Virus record (IMG/VR): IMGVR_UViG_3300026116_000091
Location: 1 to 25,563 of that record
Length of the DNA: 25,563 nt
DNA from: a virus
Strand: one strand, 5' to 3'
In this document: piece after piece, positions 3,546 to 20,252 of the stretch
Numbering within the stretch: the first letter of the stretch is position 1
Layout: each line of letters opens with the position of its first letter
The notes under the pieces: generated by a model
The model's input: only the letters and a program-made list of their open reading frames with translations
The model's database searches: none
What the model was told of the DNA's origin: nothing
Program-made: the position numbers and the translations under genes

Positions 3546-4001
3546 TCACCCTAAAATTTTGGTATAAATACGCTCAAACGGCTTGTAATCCATACGCTCT
3601 AAAATAACACCCCAATCATTTGCTAATTTCACATTCTGCATGACTCGCTGTACACCGAGACGTTTTAGTTCTTCTTCAGCTGTTTTCATGATGCGTATAC
3701 CCAAAGTACCCTGACGGTATTCGGGGGCGAGATATAGAATGTCGGATAGTGCGGTTTTGCTACTCTTGTAATGCAAATGATTGTTGATAATGTAAACCTG
3801 ATATCCAATTAGCTCTGAATCATTACGAGCCGCGGTAACGCTTAACATTCCCGCATCAGACATAAGCTGATAACGATCCCAATCAGGCTCTAGTGCAATT
3901 AGATCCTTGTTGTGCGCAATTTCTTCCCAATGTCTTATGCATAAAACAGCCAAATCCGGTTGAACGAATCTCCAATCCTCAATTTGAATTGAGATGCTCA
4001 T
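3546..4001 (-). CDS. GNAT-family N-acetyltransferase
   Basis: A 151-residue protein with the GNAT layout: a beta strand ending DILYLAPEYR (88-96), then the acetyl-CoA pyrophosphate loop R96-Q97-G98-T99-L100-G101, which matches the R/Q-x-x-G-x-G/A motif A. A helix follows (IRIMKTAEEELKRLGV), then a strand and the C-terminal NDWGVILERMDYKPFERIYTK segment typical of the fold. Substrate cannot be read from sequence. The gene lies inside the virion module, coupled by ATGA to the fibre-like gene upstream. GNAT genes recur at this place in other podophage structural clusters, with roles proposed in modifying a virion or host protein. It could also be a passenger (moron) gene with a host-directed function. 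Confidence 0.85.
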   Translation of the reverse strand: MSISIQIEDWRFVQPDLAVLCIRHWEEIAHNKDLIALEPDWDRYQLMSDAGMLSVTAARNDSELIGYQVYIINNHLHYKSSKTALSDILYLAPEYRQGTLGIRIMKTAEEELKRLGVQRVMQNVKLANDWGVILERMDYKPFERIYTKILG

Positions 4002-4810
4002 ACCGCAATCCCGTCGTTAATCAATGCGGTTCTGATTTGATTCAGGAGCGCCTTGATATCGTTAAGCATGGTTTGCTCTGTCGCCGTGTAAGTGGCCCCA
4101 GCGGTTCCGGCTATAGCACCGTTTACAGCTGCACTGGTCTGCGCTGTCTTGCCATTACATCCGAAAGCACCCGTTGCCGTTACAGTGGTTCCTTTCACCG
4201 TTGAGGCAGTCGTAGCCCCCAGAGGCGTGCCATCAATCGCGCCACCGGTAATTGCAACGTTGTTAGCATTTTGTGTACTGATCGTCCCGAGCCCAGAAAC
4301 CTGTGTGTTGGCAATTGCAATGGGTTGATCTGAGGAACTGGTAACTAACCCCTTGCCGTTAACAGTGAAGGACGCCGTGCGCGAAGCCGTGCCGTAGGAT
4401 CCCGGCGTTCCATTGACTGTCGCCAACGTTAAAACGGTTGTTCCGCTCGTAGATGTAGCATCACCGGTGAATCCAGGCATCCGTAGGTCTGATAGAATCC
4501 CGCTTGTAATCTTTGAGGTATCAATTCCTGTGATCCCAATACTGATAGACCCGGGTCCGAAAGTAATCGAAAGGCCATCAGCAATAGAGATGAATCCCAG
4601 CGAATAAACACCACCGCTCCCTATTAATATTTCCCCATCGGATGGGCTGGTTCCTAACCCTGTCCCCCCTGAAGAAACATCAATGACACCTTGAATGACC
4701 AAGCTAATAAATTGAGGATTTAGCAACCACTGTTGCCATTCCCGAGTAATACGCCCTGTTTTTTGATCGACAAACGGTGATTGGGGAAACTTAATCGCTG
4801 GAACGCTCAT
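3998..4810 (-). CDS. Tail/head fibre-like virion protein (270 aa)
   Basis: The N-terminus carries a motif common at the start of phage fibre proteins: a Pro-rich segment, then FVDQKTGRITREWQQWL (14-30). The middle (about 45-235) is Gly/Ser/Thr/Ala-rich with beta-repeat character, including GTISTQNANNVAITGG and IDGTPLGATTAST, phrases that recur in shafts of phage fibres. It ends in a short heptad-like helix (MLNDIKALLNQIRTALIND), a probable trimerisation coil. Coupled by TAATG to the gp10-like gene and by ATGA to the acetyltransferase gene. By position it could serve as the appendage or needle attached to the tail hub, in place of P22 gp26, which I do not find. Receptor specificity cannot be read from the sequence. 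Confidence 0.7.
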   Translation of the reverse strand: MSVPAIKFPQSPFVDQKTGRITREWQQWLLNPQFISLVIQGVIDVSSGGTGLGTSPSDGEILIGSGGVYSLGFISIADGLSITFGPGSISIGITGIDTSKITSGILSDLRMPGFTGDATSTSGTTVLTLATVNGTPGSYGTASRTASFTVNGKGLVTSSSDQPIAIANTQVSGLGTISTQNANNVAITGGAIDGTPLGATTASTVKGTTVTATGAFGCNGKTAQTSAAVNGAIAGTAGATYTATEQTMLNDIKALLNQIRTALINDGIAV

Positions 4811-6261
4811 TAAGTCCCACCTACATCTGCATTCAAGTTGGCTGAAACGATGACGGGATTCACAGGATCGGTGATTACAACTTCATAAATGCGATCCCGG
4901 GCCCATCCCAGCCGCCGCCAAATAGCTCTGTTCTTATATTGACCTTGTTTTCCGATAGAAACCCAATGCTCCCCAGACCACGTAGAACCGCCATCATTGG
5001 ACCATCTCAGCATGGCTTGGGGGTTGTACCCCTGCCCCGTACTGAGACCCACGCCGGGCTGGAATTGAAGCTGTAAGTCGCTGTGGTAAACACGTTGGAA
5101 ATCACTGACCAAATGCGGACAACGACGCATACGGCGAATCACATTTCCGTCATCGGTATAAAGATCGGGTTCCAATGAATAGAGTTTGCCGTTCTCAAAA
5201 TCGCCGACAATCGGTATGTCGTTGAAGAATGCATAACAATTCGCACGATGGCGTTGATAAGCGCCATTCTTCCAATAGCGCCATTTATGCCAAAATTTTG
5301 TGGAGGCGTCATAAACCCAGGTTTTATTCGCGGAGGGGAATGTTACCACCCAGAATTCATGACCGCGGACTTGGTAGGTAAATCCAATCGCATCCGAAAT
5401 ATCATCATCCTGTAAGTCATTCTCCACGGCACTCGTTGAGATTCGTTCGGCTTGATAGCCATTCATTTGCAAGGCGACGGATTGCCCCCGTCTGTTACGT
5501 GAGACAAAAGCGAACGAATTACCCAATCTGGCGACCGAGAAAGGAGCCGCACACCCTGACTGGATCGAAGTACCCGGAACAATCTGGAAGGGAAACGGGA
5601 ATGACCCGACATCCACCCAGACTTCCGAATAAGACTCGCCCAATACCCAGACTTCACGGTGATCACATATCAATGCCTTGGTATGACTGGGATCTCCCAG
5701 CATGGAGGTAAAACTTAACGGCTGCGTCGTTGTTGATAGCGCATCGGAAGCCGCCCATTGATTCGAATCGGGACGGTTATAAACGAAATAATTATCGACT
5801 ATCCCGACGGTTATGCCGCCCTGAAAAGCCCCCTCACTGGCCGGTAGAGCCGTGAATACGCCGGTATTCAATATATAAGAATATCGATTGGCGCCATCGA
5901 CAATATAAACAGCTATTCCGTTATCCGAGATAGAGACAGGACCGGCCGTCGATGACAGCGTTCCAATAATTACTGCATTAAAATGAGTGTCTATCTTGTA
6001 GACCGTATCGACGGAAACAGCGATCAGATAAATACCGCCAGTGACCGTCCACAATCCGCGCACGGGACCAGTGGTCAGTTGACAGCGAGTCAAAAGGCCT
6101 GGTGTTGGATAGAGCGTGAAATCTCCGCGATCAGCAGGGCCGAAGGGGGTTTTGCCTTCCTTGCGGGGGTCGTCTTCGACAAACCAATTGATAAGCTCTT
6201 GATCGTCTTGGTAGATGGAAGGCGCGGTATAGGCATCCCCCACGAACCCAAAATCTGGCAT
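4810..6261 (-). CDS. Packaged DNA stabilisation protein, P22 gp10-like
   Basis: A 483-residue protein, close to P22 gp10 (about 472). It has the family's N-terminus (GDAYTAPSIYQDDQELINWFVE), a TPGL motif near residue 54, many short beta strands typical of a propeller-like fold, VRGLWTVTGGIYLIAV near 67-82, a central HREVWVLGESYSEVW segment and a C-terminal region with DGGSTWS and a final beta strand. In P22, gp10 forms a hexameric ring below the gp4 ring, closes the portal and keeps packaged DNA in. The gene lies directly after the gp4-like gene, the same relative order as in P22. A GAGGG site precedes the ATG. I see no truncation. Confidence 0.88.
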   Translation of the reverse strand: MPDFGFVGDAYTAPSIYQDDQELINWFVEDDPRKEGKTPFGPADRGDFTLYPTPGLLTRCQLTTGPVRGLWTVTGGIYLIAVSVDTVYKIDTHFNAVIIGTLSSTAGPVSISDNGIAVYIVDGANRYSYILNTGVFTALPASEGAFQGGITVGIVDNYFVYNRPDSNQWAASDALSTTTQPLSFTSMLGDPSHTKALICDHREVWVLGESYSEVWVDVGSFPFPFQIVPGTSIQSGCAAPFSVARLGNSFAFVSRNRRGQSVALQMNGYQAERISTSAVENDLQDDDISDAIGFTYQVRGHEFWVVTFPSANKTWVYDASTKFWHKWRYWKNGAYQRHRANCYAFFNDIPIVGDFENGKLYSLEPDLYTDDGNVIRRMRRCPHLVSDFQRVYHSDLQLQFQPGVGLSTGQGYNPQAMLRWSNDGGSTWSGEHWVSIGKQGQYKNRAIWRRLGWARDRIYEVVITDPVNPVIVSANLNADVGGT

Positions 6262-6270
6262 GCCGAGCCC

Positions 6271-7221
6271 TCAATAAATAAAACCACCTGAATAAATCCA
6301 GGCGGCATCCACTTTTTTGTTGCGGACAATGTCGGTATCGAACATCGCAGGCGCCTGAGGATTCATATTGTTGCGCTTAATAACCCCGCGGCCCAGACGC
6401 GCTTGTTCATCTATCATGGCGGCTAGGATTTGATTGACCTTTCCGTATTCGGGCATCAGCAGTTTTGCCAGATTGAATCGAATAGCCAATTCATAACCCG
6501 GAGGAAGCTGGACGGTGTCGGAAATCGTTTGAAACTTCTGCAACAATGTATCGGTGAAGATATGCATCTCACCGGATGAAGGGTTTGGCCAATAGGTAAT
6601 CGTTCCCAACACTTCAGAGGGTTGATAGTACAACGCGCGAGGCCAAGGACCGGAAAGGGTTTTTAGCCCAATGATCTCGTATTGTTCCCTCTGAATAATG
6701 GAAACAGGGTAATCGATACCACCGGCTGTAGACGGTACGCGGACAAAGGCGGAATGAATGCGTTGCGGTCTTTCGTAATATCCCGTGATGGTCGTGCTGG
6801 CCACGGTTTGATTGATGTTGACCGTATAAGTGCCCAGCTCTGTAATATTCCCACCGGCTCCTGTGTTGAAGCTGACAATCTTGGTCCCTGCGGCAATACC
6901 AGAACCTGACAGGATTTGACCAACCGCTATTCCGCCATTCGTCAAAGACGTAATGGTTAGAATGTTATTGGTGATTGAACCCGTGAATTGAGTATTGATA
7001 GAGCCTGTTGGACCGACGGTGTATTGGTAAACATTACTGGTGAGTAAATGAATAATTTCGGTCGAATAGTAGACCATCAAATGTTCATTCGACCATTGAT
7101 CCAGCATCTGATTGAGCATCGCCAGACAGTCGCTGGCCGTTGCTGCATCAGGTGGTTCGCCCGCTTCCAATGCTCCAATGGTCCTGAGAGCCTGAGAGAT
7201 CAGGTCGATAGGCTGGGTCAT
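6271..7221 (-). CDS. Tail accessory factor / head completion protein, P22 gp4-like with beta insertion
   Basis: The N-terminal helical part ([17 protein letters not shown], then [16 protein letters not shown]) and the C-terminal part ([48 protein letters not shown]) match the P22 gp4-type tail accessory family, which binds the portal ring after packaging. P22 gp4 has 166 residues; this protein has 316. Much of the extra length is a Gly/Thr/Asn-rich beta segment at about residues 75-147 that splits the usual YTVGPTG...RPQRI junction. The start overlaps the stop of the SGNH hydrolase gene (ATGA). The family assignment is strong; the role of the insertion is unknown, perhaps a surface knob on the neck. 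Confidence 0.87.
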
Positions 7222-8795
7222 GAGGTAACCAAGCGCAGGGCAGGCGCGCCGATGTTAATCACGCCAGAAGGGTTTGCTGCAAAAGTGGCTTTCCAGCGCA
7301 CAACTACAGAGGTCATTCCCGATGGAATGGTAAATGCTTTGGTCTGCAGTACCCAGTTGAAATCATCTGAACACGAGCCGGAACCGTTGTAATCCATCGC
7401 ACTGACGGTATAAGTAATACCACCGGCCGTAACTTCCACAAAAGCCGCGACATTGCGCAGATTTGCGATACTGGCGGTTCTCATACTGCAGGTGAAGATA
7501 AACTTCTCGCCCACACTCACCAGCGCATCGAGACTGTCGCATAACACATCGACGACACCGCTCGCAGCGCCGGACATGGTGATAACTAGATTATTCCCCA
7601 GCGTATCGCCATCCGCCGCAATAGTTCGTGCGGTCGTACTAAAAGCAGTCGTGGGTCCGGAACTATTGGTACAACTGTAATTCGCCGGCGCCGTACCGGT
7701 TGCCGTACCACCCACAGAGCCGCCAGTAGTCGTCAAAAACCCTGGGTTTCGTAATGCCTGCGTGGAAGTCGCATTGACACTGCGGTCGTCGGCGGAAGAA
7801 ATAAATCCCAGCCGATTGACGATATTTGGAAACATTAATTTGAGAGAGGGTGTGAAGGCGTTGTCAGTCATTCGACGCGCGCCCAGCGAATTAGGGTGCG
7901 TGCCATCAGTGGAATAACTGGCTATCCAGTCCCCCGTCGCACTCGTCGTATTCAGCGTTGCGCCTATAATATTCACCGCAATAACACCAGGTGTAGAACG
8001 TGCCAGCTGACTCAGCGCCGTATTGAGTGCCATCTCTTTAAGATCGTTGGCTTTCGGGGTAATAAAAAACAGGAAAACCGTGGCATTGATGGCCAAGGCT
8101 TTGTTGATCATCGACTGGATATTACCGAGGGTGCGGGTTTGCGAATAAGCAGCGGTATTAAGGTCGTTTCTCGCACAAGATCCAAGAATCACAATATCCG
8201 GATTCCAGGCAATCACATCCCGATCAAACCGAGCCAGCATCATCGTGGAACTCTGACCACTCCCTCCTGCATTGATCATGCGATCGATCGGATGCCCTAA
8301 TGTGGCATTGGCCATTTCGATAAAACTGCGGTCATTAACGCGCTCAGGCACCATGACTTGAATAGCTGCCGTGGCCCCTTGTTGGTCAGTCAATACCGTG
8401 GCGGTGCCCGATACCGACCGATCAGAGACGACTTGCGCGTTGTTTGCGTCGATGACAATGGCATTGGTGAAATAACCATTGAATCCGTCTTCAGTACATC
8501 CTGTGATAAAGACATCGCCACCCGGATAAATCCCGTGGTTGTTGTAGGCAATCGAAATGGTATTGCCATTCCCCTTTAGGGTTCCGGTGGTGGAGGTATA
8601 GTTTCCGCCCGCAACAATGCTATCCCCCATGGCAACAGCCAGCTTACCCGCATTGACCCCCGCAATACGTCCATTTAGGCCCATCGCAGTATGCGCATCG
8701 GCGTGGGCAGTTAATGCTGCCGAGGATGACAAATTGCTGGTAGTCAGCCCAAAGGTGTTGGTTGTGCTTTGCGAGTTCGGACCCGGATTGGACAT
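7218..8795 (-). CDS. Virion-module SGNH/GDSL-type hydrolase with C-terminal beta-sandwich domain
   Basis: A 525-residue protein with the SGNH blocks in order: block [13 protein letters not shown] with Ser59 as nucleophile; block [12 protein letters not shown] (Gly177/Gly178); block [13 protein letters not shown] (Asn210); block [12 protein letters not shown] with Asp297 and His300. This is the catalytic set of esterases or deacetylases acting on acylated sugars or similar substrates. A Ser/Thr/Gly-rich N-terminus (1-50) begins with MSNPGPN. Residues 345-525 form a separate beta-rich domain resembling a carbohydrate-binding jelly roll (ending [20 protein letters not shown]). There is no signal peptide, so it reaches its site in the virion or after lysis. 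It lies between the coat-region genes and gp4-like, an odd place for an enzyme. O-deacetylation of host surface polysaccharide is my inference. Confidence 0.85.
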
Positions 8796-8805
8796 GGAAT
8801 CAGTC

Positions 8806-9129
8806 TCAGTTCATTACCGTGGGCAGAGTTTGTTGGTTCGGACGCATAACGACGACGTAATACACCCCGGCTGCTGGAGTGGGAGTACCCGCAGTGGAGT
8901 TGCTGAAAATGATATTGAGGGTATTCAGTGCAGAGACTCGAGAATCCGCAATGCCAACACCCGCTGTTTGCGACCCCGAAAATTTAACAATAGCAATGTC
9001 GGTAGTCTGCAAACCGGGGATAGTGAACGTTTCGGAAGTGGTAGTAGAGGCGGTCAGAGCGGTCGGCGTCAGAGAAGGTGCCAGGACCATCATCGTCCCG
9101 ACATTGCCGCGCACAGCATCAGTCAACAT
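8806..9129 (-). CDS. Small beta-rich capsid-associated protein (possible decoration protein, 107 aa)
   Basis: A 107-residue protein with no signal peptide, predicted mostly beta. A central strand pattern TFTIPGLQTTDIAIVKFSG is followed by GVGIADSRVSALNTLNI and a C-terminal AGVYYVVVMRP strand. Small proteins with this pattern recur just after the coat gene in many tailed phages and may decorate or cement the capsid; I recall the pattern but cannot name a validated family. A GGAG ribosome site lies 7 nt before the ATG, immediately after the poly-U run of the terminator at 9141-9166. Expression therefore needs read-through of that terminator, or a start just after it. The next gene begins 10 nt after its stop. 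Confidence 0.65.
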   Translation of the reverse strand: MLTDAVRGNVGTMMVLAPSLTPTALTASTTTSETFTIPGLQTTDIAIVKFSGSQTAGVGIADSRVSALNTLNIIFSNSTAGTPTPAAGVYYVVVMRPNQQTLPTVMN

Positions 9130-9170: not shown

Positions 9171-9590
9171 TCAGGACGAGAAGTCGTAACCGTAGATGTA
9201 AACATCCATAGTTGCGGCAGCGCCCTGGGCCGTGCCGACATTGAGATACAGATAGTCAACGGTTGATGTGGCAGTGGATGCGACCGTTCTGTCTGACCGT
9301 ACCGTGGGGCCTGTGAGACCGCTCAGGGCTGCGTTGGCGACAATGGCCGTACCACCCGCACCAGGGGCCGTAAACAGGCCGGCGGCGGCCGTGGTGAGGC
9401 TGATCGATGCATTCACAAACACCACGGTGTAAACCGAAAAGGTGGTCGTGTTGATCAACTGAATAACAGCTTGATCACCCGTCGCATTGACGTTGACGCC
9501 CTTAGCTACACCGAGCAGACGAATGGCCTGGGCCATCGATGGATTTTGCGTGTTGCTACCGACTTGAATGTTCGGACCGGGATTGCTCAT
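9171..9590 (-). CDS. Coat-proximal small virion protein (139 aa)
   Basis: A 139-residue, mostly beta protein: MSNPGPNIQVGSNTQN, a short helical stretch AQAIRLLGVAKG, a strand-rich middle (VYTVVFVNASISLTT), an Ala/Gly-rich loop, then TVDYLYLNVG and MDVYIYGYDFSS at the end. I chose the ATG at 9590 over the upstream in-frame TTG at 9596, because AAGGAG lies 8 nt before this ATG. The gene follows the coat gene by 12 nt and is followed by a strong terminator, so it is probably made in amounts similar to coat, as for a decoration protein. It shares its first seven residues with the SGNH hydrolase two genes downstream. Function is inferred from position; I do not recognise the family. Confidence 0.68.
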   Translation of the reverse strand: MSNPGPNIQVGSNTQNPSMAQAIRLLGVAKGVNVNATGDQAVIQLINTTTFSVYTVVFVNASISLTTAAAGLFTAPGAGGTAIVANAALSGLTGPTVRSDRTVASTATSTVDYLYLNVGTAQGAAATMDVYIYGYDFSS

Positions 9591-11955: not shown

Positions 11956-14059
11956 CGGCTAATTCTCTCTCTTCTCGGTCGGCAGCTTCCTTGGCTTGGT
12001 TGGCGTCCAAATGTTTGCTTAACAAATCTACAATACCCTTGATCTCAGCCACACTGATTTGGGTATGGGCTTTGACAGCTGTATCATGCATCCAGGCCGC
12101 ATTGTCCTCGCGGTTCTTCAGCAAATTAACTTCATCGCGGGACTCGACATCATGGGCTTTGGTGGTGGCATTGATGAGAGTACGTTTGTTCTCACCGTCT
12201 TGTTTCATCTGCTCAATTCCATGTTTGAACTTGATCTCCAATCCCTGCGCTTGAATCACACCTTGTGCTTGTTGCAATTGTTGCTGCAGAGACTTGATCA
12301 TCATCTGCGCCGATTCAGGGATATCGGAGTGTTCATCGAGCTGGGCCAATGGATTGGCTGCTGCGAGTCGATCCGCCAGCGTTTCCATGCCGGGCGCATC
12401 AATAACCCTTACCGCAAGGTCTGCACCGGCTTTCGCGACCTCTTCGCCCAGAGGGCTGTTTAAGAGTTGGGTAAAGGCTTCCAAGGCTTCCTGGCGCTTG
12501 GTGTTATAGCCGGGACCGGTGTCCATAACGACGTCATATTCACCGACTGTAATGTCATTGATGACTTTTGCTACAGCGCCTTGTTCATCCATTTCCTTCT
12601 GGTTAATCGTTACCAGATCAGCCCGGCCATCCTCGCCAATGATTCTCAGCGTACGCTCGGTGTCATAAATCTTCGGGGCAAGATCCAATATAACCTTGCC
12701 GGTATGCGCAATAGAACGGGTCAAGTTATCGTAAAAGTGGAACGTACTGATATCCGATTGTTGCTGTTCAGACTTCAACGCCTTCCCGGAAACATTTCCC
12801 GAAATCCGTTGGGCGGGCTCCACAATCCCCAGTACAGAACTGAGATCGTCCGAAATGGACATCGCCGCAACCATCGCGCCTTCCGGAGGAGGTTCAGGCT
12901 GAAGACGTTGAGGGGGCGGGGCTTCTTGTTCCTGGATATCGCGTTGCTTGTAATGCAATACAGGGCGGGCAGAGAGGTTGGCCTGCATCCACTCTTGCTC
13001 AAATCCATCATCCTGTCCTTCTGCCAGCAGCCATTTGGCTTTAGGAGCCAAAGCGACTGATTCGGTCATGCTGGTACGCCAGAAGTTGTACATTTTCTGT
13101 GGGTCTTTAGCATGACGGACAATACCAAATTTCTTTTTCTTGCCATCCAGAATGACGATGTTTCCGAATACCGGAATAATCGGGATCCAACGTCCAGGCC
13201 ATTCCCTCTCCTCCAGAATCTCCATGGCGGTCAATTTGTACCAATGGATTTTCTTGCGATACGAAGAGCGTTCAGCAACCACCATAGGTGCAGGAATGCC
13301 AGCCTCAACCATCAGTGTGTACTGATCTTCCCAAAGCGTGGTCTTGTCGGCGAGCATATACAGTGTTTCTGACTTCTCTATCACCTCGAAATATTCGGCA
13401 ATCCGCACTTCATCTTCGGTAATCCAATCACCCATATAATCCCCGGTTCCCAATTGGGTGAAATTAGCCCCCGTATCAGACCCCGGATAATGGATTTCAA
13501 AGACTTTCTTGTTGATCAGGTCGGAGATCAAACATTCCCGCTGATCGGCCCCATCCGGCGATTCACTGGATGGATCGAAGTAAACAGAAAAGGGATTTGC
13601 GATAGGTTCAATGTAAATTTCCTGATCGAAACTCTCAGGACGGCAATAATCAGTCACTATCCGCCAGTATCCCCACCCCATTCTAAGCGCGGATTCAAAG
13701 GCGTTATCGTAAGCTGTGTCAGCCGCTGAATTAACTTCGATGTGACGGCAAATACCGGAGATCACGTCAGCAATCTTGATGTCGGCTCTGCTATCCACGG
13801 CCTGTACTTTGATACGAGGCCGTTGTTGACGTTGTTGGTTGGCCACCCGACGGATATAGGCATCGAGTTTATTAATCGTGAGGCAGGGCCTTTGCTCCAA
13901 CATACGGGAGTTTTGTATCTCTGCAGGCCACTGCTCACCATGACTGAATCTCAGATCAGATTGTGCTTCTGACCTGTTATTCGATTCAGCATCATTCGCC
14001 CGCCGAAAGAACGCCATGGCCCTGTCAATGACAGCGCGGTCGCCTTTTTTATCGGTCAT
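11936..14059 (-). CDS. Portal protein, P22 gp1-like
   Basis: 707 residues from the chosen start, close to P22 portal (725). The N-terminus has the family's DRAMAFFRRANDAESNNRSE and DLRFSHGEQWP, then RPCLTINKLDAYIRRV. A stem/wing region (ESALRMGWGYWRIVTDY, then EIYIEPIANPFSVYFDP) and a long C-terminal helix rich in Gln/Glu/Lys (about 585-700) form the putative barrel. It is a dodecameric ring through which DNA is packaged and ejected and on which gp4 assembles. An ATG nine bases upstream (14068) is also in frame. I prefer 14059 because it gives an ATGA overlap with the TerL stop, the rule in this operon, and GGGGG lies 9 nt before it. Confidence 0.9.
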   Translation of the reverse strand: MTDKKGDRAVIDRAMAFFRRANDAESNNRSEAQSDLRFSHGEQWPAEIQNSRMLEQRPCLTINKLDAYIRRVANQQRQQRPRIKVQAVDSRADIKIADVISGICRHIEVNSAADTAYDNAFESALRMGWGYWRIVTDYCRPESFDQEIYIEPIANPFSVYFDPSSESPDGADQRECLISDLINKKVFEIHYPGSDTGANFTQLGTGDYMGDWITEDEVRIAEYFEVIEKSETLYMLADKTTLWEDQYTLMVEAGIPAPMVVAERSSYRKKIHWYKLTAMEILEEREWPGRWIPIIPVFGNIVILDGKKKKFGIVRHAKDPQKMYNFWRTSMTESVALAPKAKWLLAEGQDDGFEQEWMQANLSARPVLHYKQRDIQEQEAPPPQRLQPEPPPEGAMVAAMSISDDLSSVLGIVEPAQRISGNVSGKALKSEQQQSDISTFHFYDNLTRSIAHTGKVILDLAPKIYDTERTLRIIGEDGRADLVTINQKEMDEQGAVAKVINDITVGEYDVVMDTGPGYNTKRQEALEAFTQLLNSPLGEEVAKAGADLAVRVIDAPGMETLADRLAAANPLAQLDEHSDIPESAQMMIKSLQQQLQQAQGVIQAQGLEIKFKHGIEQMKQDGENKRTLINATTKAHDVESRDEVNLLKNREDNAAWMHDTAVKAHTQISVAEIKGIVDLLSKHLDANQAKEAADREERELADADRNE

Positions 14060-15489
14060 GCCATCCAACCCCCGCCAGAACTCATATCAATGCGGGGCGA
14101 TTTCTTCTGCCGGACCGTGGCAAATCTCAACATCATGAGCGCATACCGGGTAGCGGAGAGAATGTCATCATTGAGTTTGACGATAAGACCTTCTTTGCGG
14201 TGATAGAGACGAAATTCCTCAAACCAATCGTTGAGGTGATCGAATACTTTCAGGCGTCCGGTTTGCATGCGGTCCAACATCTCCGTAACGCCGGCTTCCA
14301 CACCATTGCTGCCGTCCTGAAAAGTGGCTTTGTCGGGAAGCATTTTGAGACCTTGATGTTGATATTGTTTGGCCAATTCAATCCCAGACCCTTTGTCATG
14401 CTGCAATCCATCGTGCGGCCATGCCCAAGGAAGCCATTCCCCCCAGCCTTTAACCAGTGGAGCAAACATCAACGGTGTGTGTTCCCTGGCCCGCGTACAG
14501 GCTGTGACATAAATCGTATCCGTATCCCGATCCCACGCTAATTTCACGCCACCCGTAGGATGGTCCCAACCAAAGTCGATTCCGCCAATTTGAGGCCAGT
14601 GATCAGGGATGGGAAACGAAGCGCATTTGATATATTCCTCTTCGATAGGGAATACGCGCCCCGATCCCATCGTGGGAATGCCTTTGGATCTCGCATCCCT
14701 CTCATGCAATGGGTAGCTCATGATGATGGCCTGCCGTTGTTCTGGCGTGTAATGCAGCACATCATCGATAGTCATGTTCGTTACATGCGTACCCGGGACC
14801 TTATCCAGCAGGTAACGCTTGACCACGTTCGTCATCCCTTTGAGCGGGGTGAATGTAAACATGATCGGACCCATAGCTACATTGGTACGGGTCAGTCCTT
14901 CGGTATAAACGTCTTCGTCGTGCTCTTCATCGAACCAGATAAGATGGAGGGTCGGCCCTTGCCACTTTTCACGACCTTGATCATTGGATTTGAAGCCAAG
15001 GAGGCTTTCTCCTGCCTGGATATCACCGCCTCCACCATGACGTACAATGATGGTATCAATGGCGTTGGGTGTTCCTCTCTTGTTCGTGACATCCCTCAAG
15101 CACTCCTTTGGGATCATGCCGGTGCCCACTTGCCCCAGAGCACCGTATAAAATACGTTGTGGATTATCCCTGGTGGATTCTCCGGTAATGCCTGATGCCC
15201 ATGCGCTAATGGGCTTATCGAATACTTTCCCCTCCCACCAATCTGGGTATCTCCCTGTCAGGTGCATTGCTGTCTCGGCACCCGCTGACAAGGTCTTACC
15301 CAACTGGTTGCCCGCCATCAGCAACCGCTCTCTAAATTCCTTCCCCGCCTTGTGAAACTCCATTTGCTTCAGATAGGGCTCATAGTCCCTAAGCTGGTTG
15401 TAGCTCTTCCGCTTCTGGAATTCCCTCTCCAGCACCTTGAGCAATAAGGATGGCTCGACAGGCAGTGATAATTGCGCTGAGCTGGTCAT
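14056..15489 (-). CDS. Terminase large subunit (packaging ATPase and nuclease)
   Basis: A 477-residue protein with both terminase domains. ATPase: Walker A-like MAGNQLGKT (58-66), Walker B LHLIWFDEE with Asp187/Glu188/Glu189, and coupling motif FTFTP (211-215). Nuclease: GGIDFGWDHPTG with Asp305, and DDILSATRYALMML with Asp441/Asp442 as a late acidic pair. It works with TerS to cut concatemeric DNA and drive it through the portal. The arrangement resembles P22 gp2-type terminases, which package by headful, but mechanism cannot be settled from sequence. The ATG lies 101 nt inside the TerS gene. The stop shares ATGA with the portal start. Confidence 0.93.
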   Translation of the reverse strand: MTSSAQLSLPVEPSLLLKVLEREFQKRKSYNQLRDYEPYLKQMEFHKAGKEFRERLLMAGNQLGKTLSAGAETAMHLTGRYPDWWEGKVFDKPISAWASGITGESTRDNPQRILYGALGQVGTGMIPKECLRDVTNKRGTPNAIDTIIVRHGGGGDIQAGESLLGFKSNDQGREKWQGPTLHLIWFDEEHDEDVYTEGLTRTNVAMGPIMFTFTPLKGMTNVVKRYLLDKVPGTHVTNMTIDDVLHYTPEQRQAIIMSYPLHERDARSKGIPTMGSGRVFPIEEEYIKCASFPIPDHWPQIGGIDFGWDHPTGGVKLAWDRDTDTIYVTACTRAREHTPLMFAPLVKGWGEWLPWAWPHDGLQHDKGSGIELAKQYQHQGLKMLPDKATFQDGSNGVEAGVTEMLDRMQTGRLKVFDHLNDWFEEFRLYHRKEGLIVKLNDDILSATRYALMMLRFATVRQKKSPRIDMSSGGGWMA

Positions 15490-16377: not shown

Positions 16378-16842
16378 TTAGCCCTTCAGGCTGGTTTTCA
16401 ATGAGGTCTTCAGCGAGCCTTTAAGGGACTGCTTGAAGCCAGTATTTCCCCCGGTTCCTGGGGTAAGCACGGTAATCGTGAATGGTTTTTCAAAGGTCAG
16501 CGAAAATGAATCCGTAGTACGAATACGGACGGAATAGGTTCCTGCACCCAAAACCGAGGGGTCGTTACAACGCAGATTGGCGCCAGAGATATTGAAGCTG
16601 GCGTTATTCGTGCTCCCGGCGCCCGCTACCAGGGTATAGGTAAACGTATCTCCGGGATCGACATCAACGCTGCTTAGCGTCCCTACAAATGCGTTTACTC
16701 CCTCTGTCGTGTAACAAGAGCTGTTAGACAGGAGAATATCTGTTGGGGCTGCCGGGCCCGATCCACTGACCAACCCCAGTGTAATGATCCCGGCTATTGA
16801 AGAGCCCGGACCTATAGGTGTGACAAGTTGGGCAATGGACAT
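16378..16842 (-). CDS. Cadherin/Ig-like domain protein with basic Ser-Leu-Lys repeat tail
   Basis: 154 residues. Residues about 30-127 form one cadherin-like beta-sandwich: PTDILLSNSSCYTTEG, VGTLSSVDVDPGDTFTYTLV, then ISGANLRCNDPSVLGAGTYSVRIRTTDS and FEKPFTITVL. The VDVDPGDTFTY segment matches the calcium-binding-type motif of such domains. A Gly/Thr/Pro linker leads to a tail made of a short repeat, roughly SLK-G/T-SLK, ending at the last residue. Such tails occur at the C-termini of other phage virion proteins, as far as I recall. The start overlaps the previous stop (TGATG). Probable virion surface or adhesion module; partner unknown. Confidence 0.66.
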   Translation of the reverse strand: MSIAQLVTPIGPGSSIAGIITLGLVSGSGPAAPTDILLSNSSCYTTEGVNAFVGTLSSVDVDPGDTFTYTLVAGAGSTNNASFNISGANLRCNDPSVLGAGTYSVRIRTTDSFSLTFEKPFTITVLTPGTGGNTGFKQSLKGSLKTSLKTSLKG

Positions 16843-18134
16843 CAGGTAGCCCGGGTACGACTGGTCGGAGCAGTGGAGCTATCCAACGTATAGGTTGCAG
16901 CGGTCGTACTGCCGTCCAGCTTCTTGACAGTGAGGGTTGTGCCCGATACCGATACCTCGCCAACAGATTGCATAGTTAGGAAAGCCGCTTGAGCCAGGGT
17001 GGGTGCTACACCATCGGCGGCATAGCTCTCAATCATTTGAGTCGTGAGAACTGCAGTCGATACATCGGTTTTTGCAGTCGTACCCAGTGACCCGATTGAA
17101 CCCACGACGTTTCCACCGACATTACCTGTCACTGAACCTACAGCACCGGTAACAGACCCTACTGCTCCTGTGACGGAACCGACAGAACCTACAACGTTAC
17201 CACCTACGTTACCGGTAACACTGGCTACTGCAGAAGCCGCAACTGCGGTACCAATGGACGTTTTCATGGTGGCAGTAAAGTCACCCGCAGTGGGTGCATT
17301 GGTCAGGTTGGTGACGGTGGTAATCGTGCCAGCCGTGATATTGGTAGTGCTGGCCAGCGTGGCAGCAGGGAATGTAATCGTTCCTGACGCGCTTGCAGTC
17401 TGACTGCCGATTTGGGTAGCGTTGACGGGGGGTGGTGAAGCTGTAGATCCAGGTGCGCCTCCAAATAAGAAATATGTAATTGTGCCGGACGGGGTTACAT
17501 CCCAATTGGGGCTTACAGTCAAAGTATCAGTCGAGCCAACATTGCTATCCACAACACGGAATTGCCAATAACCTTGTGTCGATCCGAAAGCAGCAATAAT
17601 GTTGCCGCGGCAAGTATTATCACCAAATGCCGCAGCCGAACGCATGACAAGTGTGGAGGCAGTAGCAGATTGAGCAGTGCCGTTATCCGATATTCCAAAT
17701 GATGGAATGGCGCCGAGGGGCACATTGATATTATTAAGATCAATACCCGCTTCCCCAGTGCTGGCAATATCCAGCGTCCTTCCCGCGGTGGTCGGCATGA
17801 CAGCTGAACGGTTCTCGATCGAGAAACTACCCACCACATAGCCTACGGCGGATGTACCGCCTACCGTTCCCGTAGTGATTACTAGGTCATAGTTGGTAGC
17901 CGTTGCATATCCGTTACCGCCCGAAGCTACAACACGAACGTTGTTCAGGCCGGTTCTGCTATCGAAATCCGCAGTTAATGTGATACCCGCCGTGAGTTCG
18001 GTGGTGCTATTGGCAGGATAGGCCGAAATCACAGGACTTCCCGAGAGCGTTGTTGGAGCACCTGTCGAGGCAGCGGTTGTGGCGAATTTAATATCTATCG
18101 TATCGCCGAGCCGGATGTCTCCGTAATAGCTCAT
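16842..18134 (-). CDS. Fibre/appendage-like virion protein with glycine-valine stalk repeats (430 aa)
   Basis: I chose the ATG at 18134, not one 13 codons upstream: it forms ATGA with the preceding stop and has GGGAG 9 nt before it. The N-terminal MSYYGDIRLGDTIDIKFAT is typical of this phage family, and a beta domain with Ig-like strands follows to about 115. Residues about 120-225 form a second beta domain. A stalk at about 304-350 consists of repeats of SVTGNVGGNVVGSVG and SVTGAVG. The C-terminus has ESYAADGVAPTLAQA, then VSGTTLTVKKLDGSTTAATY, a module I recognise from many phage structural proteins. Likely a trimeric surface fibre; what it binds is unknown. Confidence 0.72.
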   Translation of the reverse strand: MSYYGDIRLGDTIDIKFATTAASTGAPTTLSGSPVISAYPANSTTELTAGITLTADFDSRTGLNNVRVVASGGNGYATATNYDLVITTGTVGGTSAVGYVVGSFSIENRSAVMPTTAGRTLDIASTGEAGIDLNNINVPLGAIPSFGISDNGTAQSATASTLVMRSAAAFGDNTCRGNIIAAFGSTQGYWQFRVVDSNVGSTDTLTVSPNWDVTPSGTITYFLFGGAPGSTASPPPVNATQIGSQTASASGTITFPAATLASTTNITAGTITTVTNLTNAPTAGDFTATMKTSIGTAVAASAVASVTGNVGGNVVGSVGSVTGAVGSVTGAVGSVTGNVGGNVVGSIGSLGTTAKTDVSTAVLTTQMIESYAADGVAPTLAQAAFLTMQSVGEVSVSGTTLTVKKLDGSTTAATYTLDSSTAPTSRTRAT

Positions 18135-18859
18135 CGCGTTAAACTCCCGAGTAAAAGACCATTGACGAGACATCCATCCACTAGATTTCCACTGCCACCA
18201 CCCCCACCGCCGGGTTCGGGCACAATGAAAATGTATGCAATGTGGTTTGCCGCTGAACCATGCGTATTGGTGAACGTCGCTTGTTGAGAGCCGGAGCTTG
18301 CCGTTTTATATTCAACGCGCAGCGCATTGGCGCCTGCGGCGCTTGTGAATCCTGTGCCGGCTGCGGGGATAGAGTTGAATGCGGAATCGCATGCAACGCC
18401 CCAGTTAACAGCCGTCGTTGCGCCCCGCGTGGCCGACCCCGAGACAACAGCATCAGTCCCAGTCCCGGCAGACGCACTCAGACTATTGGTGCCATCTGCT
18501 GCGCCCGTGCTCAACCCGCTAAACTCGGAAGTAAATCCATTCATGCCGAATGCGGGTGATGCAGACAGCGTAATTTTGATTGCAGTGACACTGGCGGGCA
18601 TGCTGGGAATATTGAATACGACCATACCCGTATCAGTTGCGTACCGTTGTGTGACGCCTTCTTCGCTGTAGGTAATCGCGTTATTGCTTTGGTCGGTCAC
18701 ACTCACCAGCGTGCGCGCGGGATCGCCGCTGTTCTGAAAATACAAAACGCCAGCAAAGACTCTGTTGCCTGTAGTAAAAGCGACAGCCGGCGTCAATGTT
18801 CTGGTTGCAGAACCAGAAACGAGGCCGAATGTTTCAGTATTGACGTGCGCAAAGGCCAT
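18131..18859 (-). CDS. Beta-rich virion-type protein with Gly-rich C-terminal linker (242 aa)
   Basis: A 242-residue protein, Ser/Thr/Gly/Ala-rich, with many short strands, for example LTPAVAFTTGNRVFAGVLYF, then IKITLSASPAFGMNGFTSEF and HIAYIFIVPEPG. It resembles phage proteins built of a single jelly-roll-like domain of about 210 residues. A run of glycines (about 216-223) links to a short C-terminal tag NLVDGCLVNGLLLGSLTR that looks like an assembly or anchoring peptide. No clear Shine-Dalgarno precedes the ATG, so translation may depend on coupling with the gene 5 nt upstream. It overlaps the next gene by ATGA. The family is not named here; virion surface role inferred. Confidence 0.62.
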   Translation of the reverse strand: MAFAHVNTETFGLVSGSATRTLTPAVAFTTGNRVFAGVLYFQNSGDPARTLVSVTDQSNNAITYSEEGVTQRYATDTGMVVFNIPSMPASVTAIKITLSASPAFGMNGFTSEFSGLSTGAADGTNSLSASAGTGTDAVVSGSATRGATTAVNWGVACDSAFNSIPAAGTGFTSAAGANALRVEYKTASSGSQQATFTNTHGSAANHIAYIFIVPEPGGGGGGSGNLVDGCLVNGLLLGSLTR

Positions 18860-18864
18860 TTTAT

Positions 18865-19119
18865 CTATTCAGCTATTTCATACTCGGAAGAAAATATATC
18901 TGGCGCCACAATACGTCGCCCACGAATAGGATGGGCAACTAAATAGTGGCCGAGGGTTGGATTAAATTCCTTCATCCATCTTTCCGATGCATGCAACTCA
19001 TAATTGTCGGAGCCTAGAATAATTGTTTGATCCGCCTCTTGTGGATGCGGCTGCATGTCAAGGATTTGCCATGCCTGACAAACATCGCCACTACTTAATT
19101 CTTTGCAGAGGATGCTCAC
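18865..19119 (-). CDS. Small conserved-type phage protein of unknown function (84 aa)
   Basis: I start it at GTG 19119, which gives a GTGA overlap with the stop of the preceding gene; an in-frame TTG at 19137 is less likely. The 84-residue product has ILCKELSSGDVCQAW, then ADQTIILGSDNYE, and a C-terminal half FNPTLGHYLVAHPIRGRRIVAPDIFSSEY. That half resembles the Pro-x-x-Gly-x-Tyr-x-Val segment in small phage proteins often ending in a Phe-x-x-x-Tyr motif. No membrane segment or signal is seen. It sits between two putative surface proteins, so it may be an assembly factor or chaperone for a fibre; that is speculation from position. Confidence 0.55.
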   Translation of the reverse strand: MSILCKELSSGDVCQAWQILDMQPHPQEADQTIILGSDNYELHASERWMKEFNPTLGHYLVAHPIRGRRIVAPDIFSSEYEIAE

Positions 19120-20252
19120 GATGTATAGGGACCCCAAGTAGTAATGACGGTATCCGTCTCATCGTATTCGACGATATAAAGACCGCTCTGGCCGGTTCCG
19201 ATGTAACCGAGGTTGACGGTGGTGGTGACCGTAATGCCGGATTTGGTGCTGGGCTGCACGACAAATTTGTTCGCCGACCCTGGCGTTGAAGCATTAATCA
19301 ATTCCACCCTTCGTCTGGCGGTTCCATTCGAGGAATAGGAAATGTACATATCGTCGATATAGAAAATCGTATCGCCCCAATCATTCCCGTTAGGGGTTGT
19401 GGGGCCATTCCCGAAATAGAGCTGGAAAATCAAATATCGGAAGGGATTGGCGTTGTCGTTTGTTCCGCGGTAAATCCGGTTTGTTGAATTGACCGTAAAG
19501 TTGTAGCTGGCGCCTGCATTCGTAATATCCCGGATTTTTCGGTTATAGATGCCGTTTGCTGTGCCCGGCGTAGAATTTTCTTTGGTGTACATCTGGTCAC
19601 GTACCCAGATGTTCTGTGGATAACCATCGACTGTGTTTAAAACGGCTTGTGAATAAGGAGAATTGGTTGATCCACCCACATAACCAGGATCTGCCGTAAA
19701 GTTGGAGAACGGCATGTTGTCGCGTGCAGCACTGGATGTGTCATAACACGAGGGTGGATATCCATCTACAACCTCTGGACCACCACCGCCTGTATGATCA
19801 GTAATGGTCTGCCAACGGTCGGTTTTGAATTGCACTCCGCTAAAACTGGCATTGCATTGCCAATAATAATTTCTGGACCGATAGACATCGGTGGAACCTG
19901 ATGCCCCTACATCAAATTGATAACTACCGCGGGCATTGGAGCTAGACTCTCCCCGTGCCGCAGGGTCATACACCAACGATTGAGCGCGAGAAAGTGTCCT
20001 TGTATTGCTGTAATACCAATCACTCAAGGTTGCAAAAAGTTGCGTCCAACCCGACTTGGTGAAATGGGTATTTAAAGTCCCGGTATTGATTGCTCCCGTT
20101 GCGCCGCCAAGAAATTCAAATGACGGAAGCGTGCCAGAAACAGAACTAGTAAGCTGAATCGAGGTGTTATCAGTGAGGGTCGAGCCACCCCCGCCACCGC
20201 CTGAATAAGCGGGACGTAATTGAGGGCGACTGGCCACCTGTATCAAGCCCAA
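19116..20252 (-). CDS. Putative receptor-binding protein with ConA/polysaccharide-lyase-like domain
   Basis: A 378-residue protein starting at TTG, supported by GGAG 6 nt upstream; no ATG fits. A short N-terminal segment (1-17) is joined by a run of six glycines to a beta domain. Residues about 60-325 look like a concanavalin-A-like or lyase-type jelly roll: WTQLFATLSDWYYSN, a central NIWVRDQMYTKENSTPGTAN, then YLIFQLYFGNGP, and WGDTIFYIDDMYISYS, a typical closing strand of such lectin-like domains. The last 70 residues form a small separate beta domain. Candidate for glycan binding or cleavage at the host surface. I cannot point to certain catalytic residues, so binding is more secure than cleavage. 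Confidence 0.65.
   Translation of the reverse strand: MGLIQVASRPQLRPAYSGGGGGGSTLTDNTSIQLTSSVSGTLPSFEFLGGATGAINTGTLNTHFTKSGWTQLFATLSDWYYSNTRTLSRAQSLVYDPAARGESSSNARGSYQFDVGASGSTDVYRSRNYYWQCNASFSGVQFKTDRWQTITDHTGGGGPEVVDGYPPSCYDTSSAARDNMPFSNFTADPGYVGGSTNSPYSQAVLNTVDGYPQNIWVRDQMYTKENSTPGTANGIYNRKIRDITNAGASYNFTVNSTNRIYRGTNDNANPFRYLIFQLYFGNGPTTPNGNDWGDTIFYIDDMYISYSSNGTARRRVELINASTPGSANKFVVQPSTKSGITVTTTVNLGYIGTGQSGLYIVEYDETDTVITTWGPYTS

Follow-up and report, generated by a model that had tools for sequence, protein, structure and literature searches.

The window analysed here, an IMG/VR virus record 25,563 bases long, carries on its minus strand a P22-like operon of structural genes in the order large terminase, portal, scaffold, coat, dec1, dec2, SGNH hydrolase, gp4-like and gp10-like. 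The portal is of the P22 type (PF16510), as is the coat protein (PF11651, 9603–10892), which is followed by two small decoration-like genes, namely dec1 (9171–9590), a decoration/cement-like protein with an NPGP start and a predicted 8-stranded jelly roll, and dec2 (8806–9129). ORF calling and Pfam placed at 7218–8795 an SGNH/GDSL hydrolase gene of 525 amino acids, whose TGA stop overlaps, as ATGA, the start codon of the gene for a gp4-like head-tail adaptor (6271–7221); a gp10-like head closure/packaged DNA stabilisation protein (PF11134) follows at 4810–6261. The original prediction had located the hydrolase between capsid and neck genes, and this was borne out, as was its interval, which holds exactly one open reading frame; its strand, minus, had not been given. 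The GC content of the gene (0.522, against 0.515 for the window) ruled out a compositionally foreign piece of DNA, and no plasmid match was found. Regarding other parts of the window, the gp4-like protein has an insert at about residues 79–150 with matches to tail-fibre PHROGs, which is absent from the gp4 of locus L067; a GNAT acetyltransferase is encoded at 3546–4001 in the tail module, where phages PBR31 and Pam1 also have acetyltransferases; and several unassigned ORFs at 16378–20252, flanked by the lysis genes and the small terminase gene, are possible structural or fibre genes, those tested giving no Pfam match over cut-off.

The hydrolase scored 44.1 bits against PF13472 (curated cut-off 32.9) and 27.5 bits against PF00657 (curated cut-off 23.6), and also matched the esterase/lipase family phrog_19622; its nearest natural relative in the PDB is the putative acylhydrolase 4PPY. 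Judged by the Pfam scores and by the alignment of blocks I, II, III and V, the gene belongs to the SGNH/GDSL hydrolase superfamily. A direct search of IMG/VR and GTDB genomes gave no close relatives, and two further scans gave one relative (A6) and none (P0008). Most of the catalytic set originally proposed aligned, at the proposed residue numbers, with other phage SGNH proteins: the putative nucleophile Ser59 (8619–8621) in the GDS of block I (residues 57–59), Asn210 (8166–8168) in block III, which reads ARND vs GxND, and Asp297 (7905–7907) and His300 (7896–7898) in the DGTHPN of block V. The exception was block II, where Gly177/178 had been taken as the conserved glycine and the alignments instead show Gly180 of NAGGSG (8256–8258), the probable oxyanion glycine, to be invariant.

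The SGNH domain is preceded by a Ser/Thr/Asn-rich linker, which separates it from the N-terminal peptide, and contains between blocks I and II a long insertion (residues 62–160, 8316–8612) for which strands are predicted with low confidence. Residues 350–525 (7221–7748; NPGF...GTATGTAP...) form a putative beta-rich C-terminal domain, a candidate carbohydrate-binding module. The AF2 model of the protein, built with 3 sequences in the alignment, has a mean pLDDT of 40.5 and yields the order of secondary structure only; the strands that it places at residues 382–523, and the similar C-termini of other phage SGNH proteins, are what supports the C-terminal beta domain of the original prediction. 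No signal-peptide-like hydrophobic start was found and, for this reason, a lysis or exported-esterase role like that of PBR31 gp40 was rejected.

The protein begins with MSNPGPN (8775–8795, minus strand), which is also the start of dec1, and no similarity between the two proteins was found beyond this tag. In general, dec1 starts with M(A/S)NPGP, to which two further residues are added in some cases. NPGP was invariant in 34 diverse dec1 proteins picked among tagged sequences, of which the other 33 are 36–80% identical to that of the window, and was present in 12 of the 13 dec1 relatives chosen by homology alone (set A2), the remaining one having NPGA. In the AF2 model of dec1, an eight-stranded beta sandwich, with pLDDT of about 90 for most of residues 23–136, is preceded by a disordered start (pLDDT below 50 at residues 7–17). 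The best fold match in the PDB is the cement protein of BPP-1 (3J4U, E 5e-3, TM 0.47) and the eighth is the Pam1 cement protein gp6 (7EEL, E 1.4e-2, TM 0.46); both are weak, and they are a pointer to the jelly-roll cement class rather than a proof of it. The dec1 profile gave no match to PDB sequences. The dec1 protein resembles both cement proteins in predicted fold, and that of Pam1 also in gene order, although Pam1 gp6 has no NPGP. It has been reported that the N-terminal loop of the BPP-1 cement protein touches two coat subunits (PMC3863775) and that the corresponding loop of the Pam1 protein contacts the coat (PMC9698820). A start that is conserved yet predicted to be unfolded, on a cement-like protein, fits the expectation for a docking peptide.

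Among 8,180 ORFs in 239 loci, 140 are tagged; these numbers include overlapping genome copies and rely on mechanical ORF calls, so that they show how rare the tag is rather than how often it arose independently, and many of the loci were fetched because of a dec1 match. All the tagged ORFs with a coat gene in view sit downstream of it, and for the 119 dec1 genes with a coat gene in view the distance to it is in every case at most 400 bp. Outside the tagged ORFs, NPGP occurred twice in 1.26 million residues. The same start is found just after the coat on other bodies, namely on dec2-like proteins in L060, L070 and PBR31, and on proteins of about 78 amino acids in L074, L093 and others. In five loci, tagged proteins of 77–95 amino acids replace dec1 directly after the coat (L074 16432–16668, L093 1566–1802, L097 2343–2582, L103 718–1005 and L107 1858–2091); they share the motif (L/V)(G/A)F(Y/H)G.(T/S)P(V/I).Q, and the one in L074 matched a head-fibre PHROG at chance level only (E 0.77).

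The finding of one peptide on different bodies, in genes as close to each other as dec1 and the hydrolase, might also have arisen as a side effect when neighbouring genes recombined at their 5' ends; the tag would then have no docking role and the enzyme, if in the virion, would be there by other means. The two tags of the window differ by synonymous codons, which favours selection on the peptide over a recent copy, and the tag is invariant in the 34 dec1 proteins and recurs, as described below, on a second, very divergent SGNH protein, so that we regard an origin by recombination alone as very improbable.

The interval between the decoration genes and gp4 is a hypervariable slot, of which the SGNH gene is a rare cargo. 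In the closest relative found, L002 (gp4 83%, coat 86%, portal 81%, dec1 80% and dec2 68% identical), dec2 is followed directly by gp4 and the SGNH gene is missing. The large terminase of the window (14056–15489) shares only 40% identity with its counterpart in L002 (84–1547), which, compared with the value for the portal, indicates a mosaic break between the two genes. Where other relatives have the interval complete, it is in most cases filled by fibre-like genes of 600–1080 amino acids together with small genes. Among 192 related phage records PF13472 was matched in L159 and PBR31 only, a count to be read as a lower bound as many of the records are fragments.

The variable presence of the gene among close relatives would suit a non-structural moron that came to lie in a structural operon by chance, e.g., an esterase working within the host on surface polysaccharide or in superinfection exclusion, and the lysis block of PBR31 does include an SGNH gene whose product has a signal peptide. 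The hydrolase of the window has no such start; it bears instead the cement-type tag and overlaps gp4, and for it we consider a moron very improbable.

The content of the slot raises a second possibility, that the enzyme replaced a slot fibre and is an appendage of the neck or tail, attached near gp4, with a function like that of a tailspike deacetylase. Besides the large fibre-like ORFs of most relatives, the overlap of the SGNH stop with the gp4 start points in this direction, as does the 166-aa fibre-like ORF of L115, which is tagged and lies 4 bp before gp4; moreover, those phage SGNH enzymes that have been characterised belong to the tail (PMC13123978, PMC11654681). The slot fibre genes themselves start with M(A/S/T)(N/D/S)P(A/S), and some short ones with MSNPGV, a looser form resembling the tag. 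If this is one and the same signal, the tag may address proteins to the virion in general, or to the neck, which makes a neck or tail site possible. By contrast, the N-terminus of the hydrolase has no match to the fibre motif NLLPVQ..DG.F.TFIG and shows the cement protein's NPGP in its strict form. Searches of Pfam and PHROG gave no spike or fibre family match, so that neither the fibre start of the family nor a known spike or fibre domain, by which a tailspike or tail fibre would be recognised, was found; of the features of the dec1 cement type, the protein has the NPGP tail but lacks the jelly-roll body. Weighing these points, we judge a neck or tail appendage rather unlikely, though it deserves more weight than recombination or a moron.

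Only 3 of the 311 slot ORFs of at least 150 amino acids have the tag, namely the hydrolase of the window, an SGNH protein of L159 and the ORF of L115 mentioned above. In L159 the order of genes is coat, dec1, a 112-aa ORF and the tagged SGNH ORF, which is cut by the end of the contig and has 429 amino acids or more; the tagged SGNH proteins are therefore two in all, one of them incomplete. The L159 protein scored 36.9 bits against PF13472, above cut-off, while phmmer detected no similarity to the hydrolase of the window; the best BLASTP match between them lies over the tag (15 of 28 residues identical), and those in the SGNH and C-terminal domains are weak. As far as can be told from these alignments, the two proteins share the tag and perhaps the layout, and are far from each other in their catalytic domains. 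In the L159 protein the Asp/His block reads DPSIH, a spacing that departs from DxxH and makes its activity less certain.

Taken together, the explanation that we prefer, and hold to be somewhat more probable than all the others combined, is that the hydrolase is a polysaccharide O-acetylesterase mounted on the virion by means of a cement-type N-terminal peptide. Its first 17 residues or so would serve for docking in the way proposed for dec1, the phage's own putative cement protein, and the presence of the same peptide on both suggests that the enzyme uses the dock of dec1. Docking to the coat lattice at the cement sites would place the enzyme on the head; as a second choice, it could dock to the neck via gp4 or the portal. 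The SGNH domain would remove ester groups, most likely O-acetyl, from the host surface polysaccharide, to which the C-terminal domain, a candidate sugar-binding module, would probably bind. We build on what is seen in the sequences, that is the SGNH match, the conserved residues, the position in the operon, the shared peptide and its restriction to one gene interval; docking by the peptide, its partner on the virion, and the activity and substrate of the enzyme are inferred from these.

The original prediction had gone as far as an active enzyme on the virion, possibly on the capsid surface instead of the tail tip. Indirect support for the first part comes from the conservation of the catalytic residues, from the ATGA overlap and the place in a structural operon, from the lack of a signal-peptide-like start and from the cement-type tag. 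Regarding the second, a capsid site has gained in probability, owing to the tag common to the hydrolase and to dec1 beside the coat, while the looser start of the fibre genes keeps the neck or tail under consideration. The proposed deacetylation of capsule or O-antigen is consistent, by analogy, with the characterised phage SGNH proteins (PMC13123978, PMC11654681).

More generally, and only tentatively, as we would put it at clearly less than an even chance, NPGP may be a plug-in address onto the coat lattice, used by cement proteins, by small head-fibre-like proteins and, twice, by very divergent SGNH esterases, with a sugar enzyme displayed on the head as the outcome. Enzymes that strip sugars from the host surface are known on phage tails. 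If the proposal is true, a head-mounted enzyme fixed by a cement peptide would change the view of how such phages move through capsule or biofilm, and with the peptide, a short tag of natural origin, enzymes could be loaded onto a P22-like shell.

A search of the open-access literature found no report of capsid-mounted esterases. The characterised phage SGNH esterases are tail proteins, active on p-nitrophenyl acetate, which target host surface polysaccharides (PMC13123978, PMC11654681). Like the receptor-binding SGNH esterases G7C gp63.1 and the SGNH fibres of Klebsiella prophages, and like the Moo19 and B2 tailspikes with esterase activity, the hydrolase of the window would belong to the class of virion esterases; unlike these tail fibres and tailspikes, it adjoins the coat region and has a cement-type tag. 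The cement proteins of BPP-1 and Pam1, for their part, have no enzyme domain. The phrog_19622 esterase/lipase and the SGNH proteins that actinophages encode beside the capsid (Casserole gp16, Blubba gp91 and Lambo gp5) have an SGNH domain about 24–36% identical, a beta-rich C-terminus and genes near those for capsid or portal. In Arthrobacter phage Casserole the related gene directly follows that of the major capsid protein, where two tandem hydrolase genes, the SGNH esterase and another annotated hydrolase, are found (L247 2764–5556); in Mycobacterium phage Blubba it lies three genes after that of the major capsid protein and adjacent to a head-fibre gene; in Gordonia phage Lambo it is near the portal, and in other phages near the tail tube or baseplate. 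The location had been presented as unusual, and this holds only in part in view of these actinophage genes, which come from different hosts, encode different N-termini and have no NPGP tag. Finally, Xanthomonas phage PBR31, a related P22-like phage, has the NPGP start on gp23 and also encodes an SGNH esterase, gp40, which differs from that of the window in its signal peptide and its place in the lysis block. On these sequence comparisons, an SGNH gene beside a capsid gene is not unique; what is new here is the cement-type tag that it carries.
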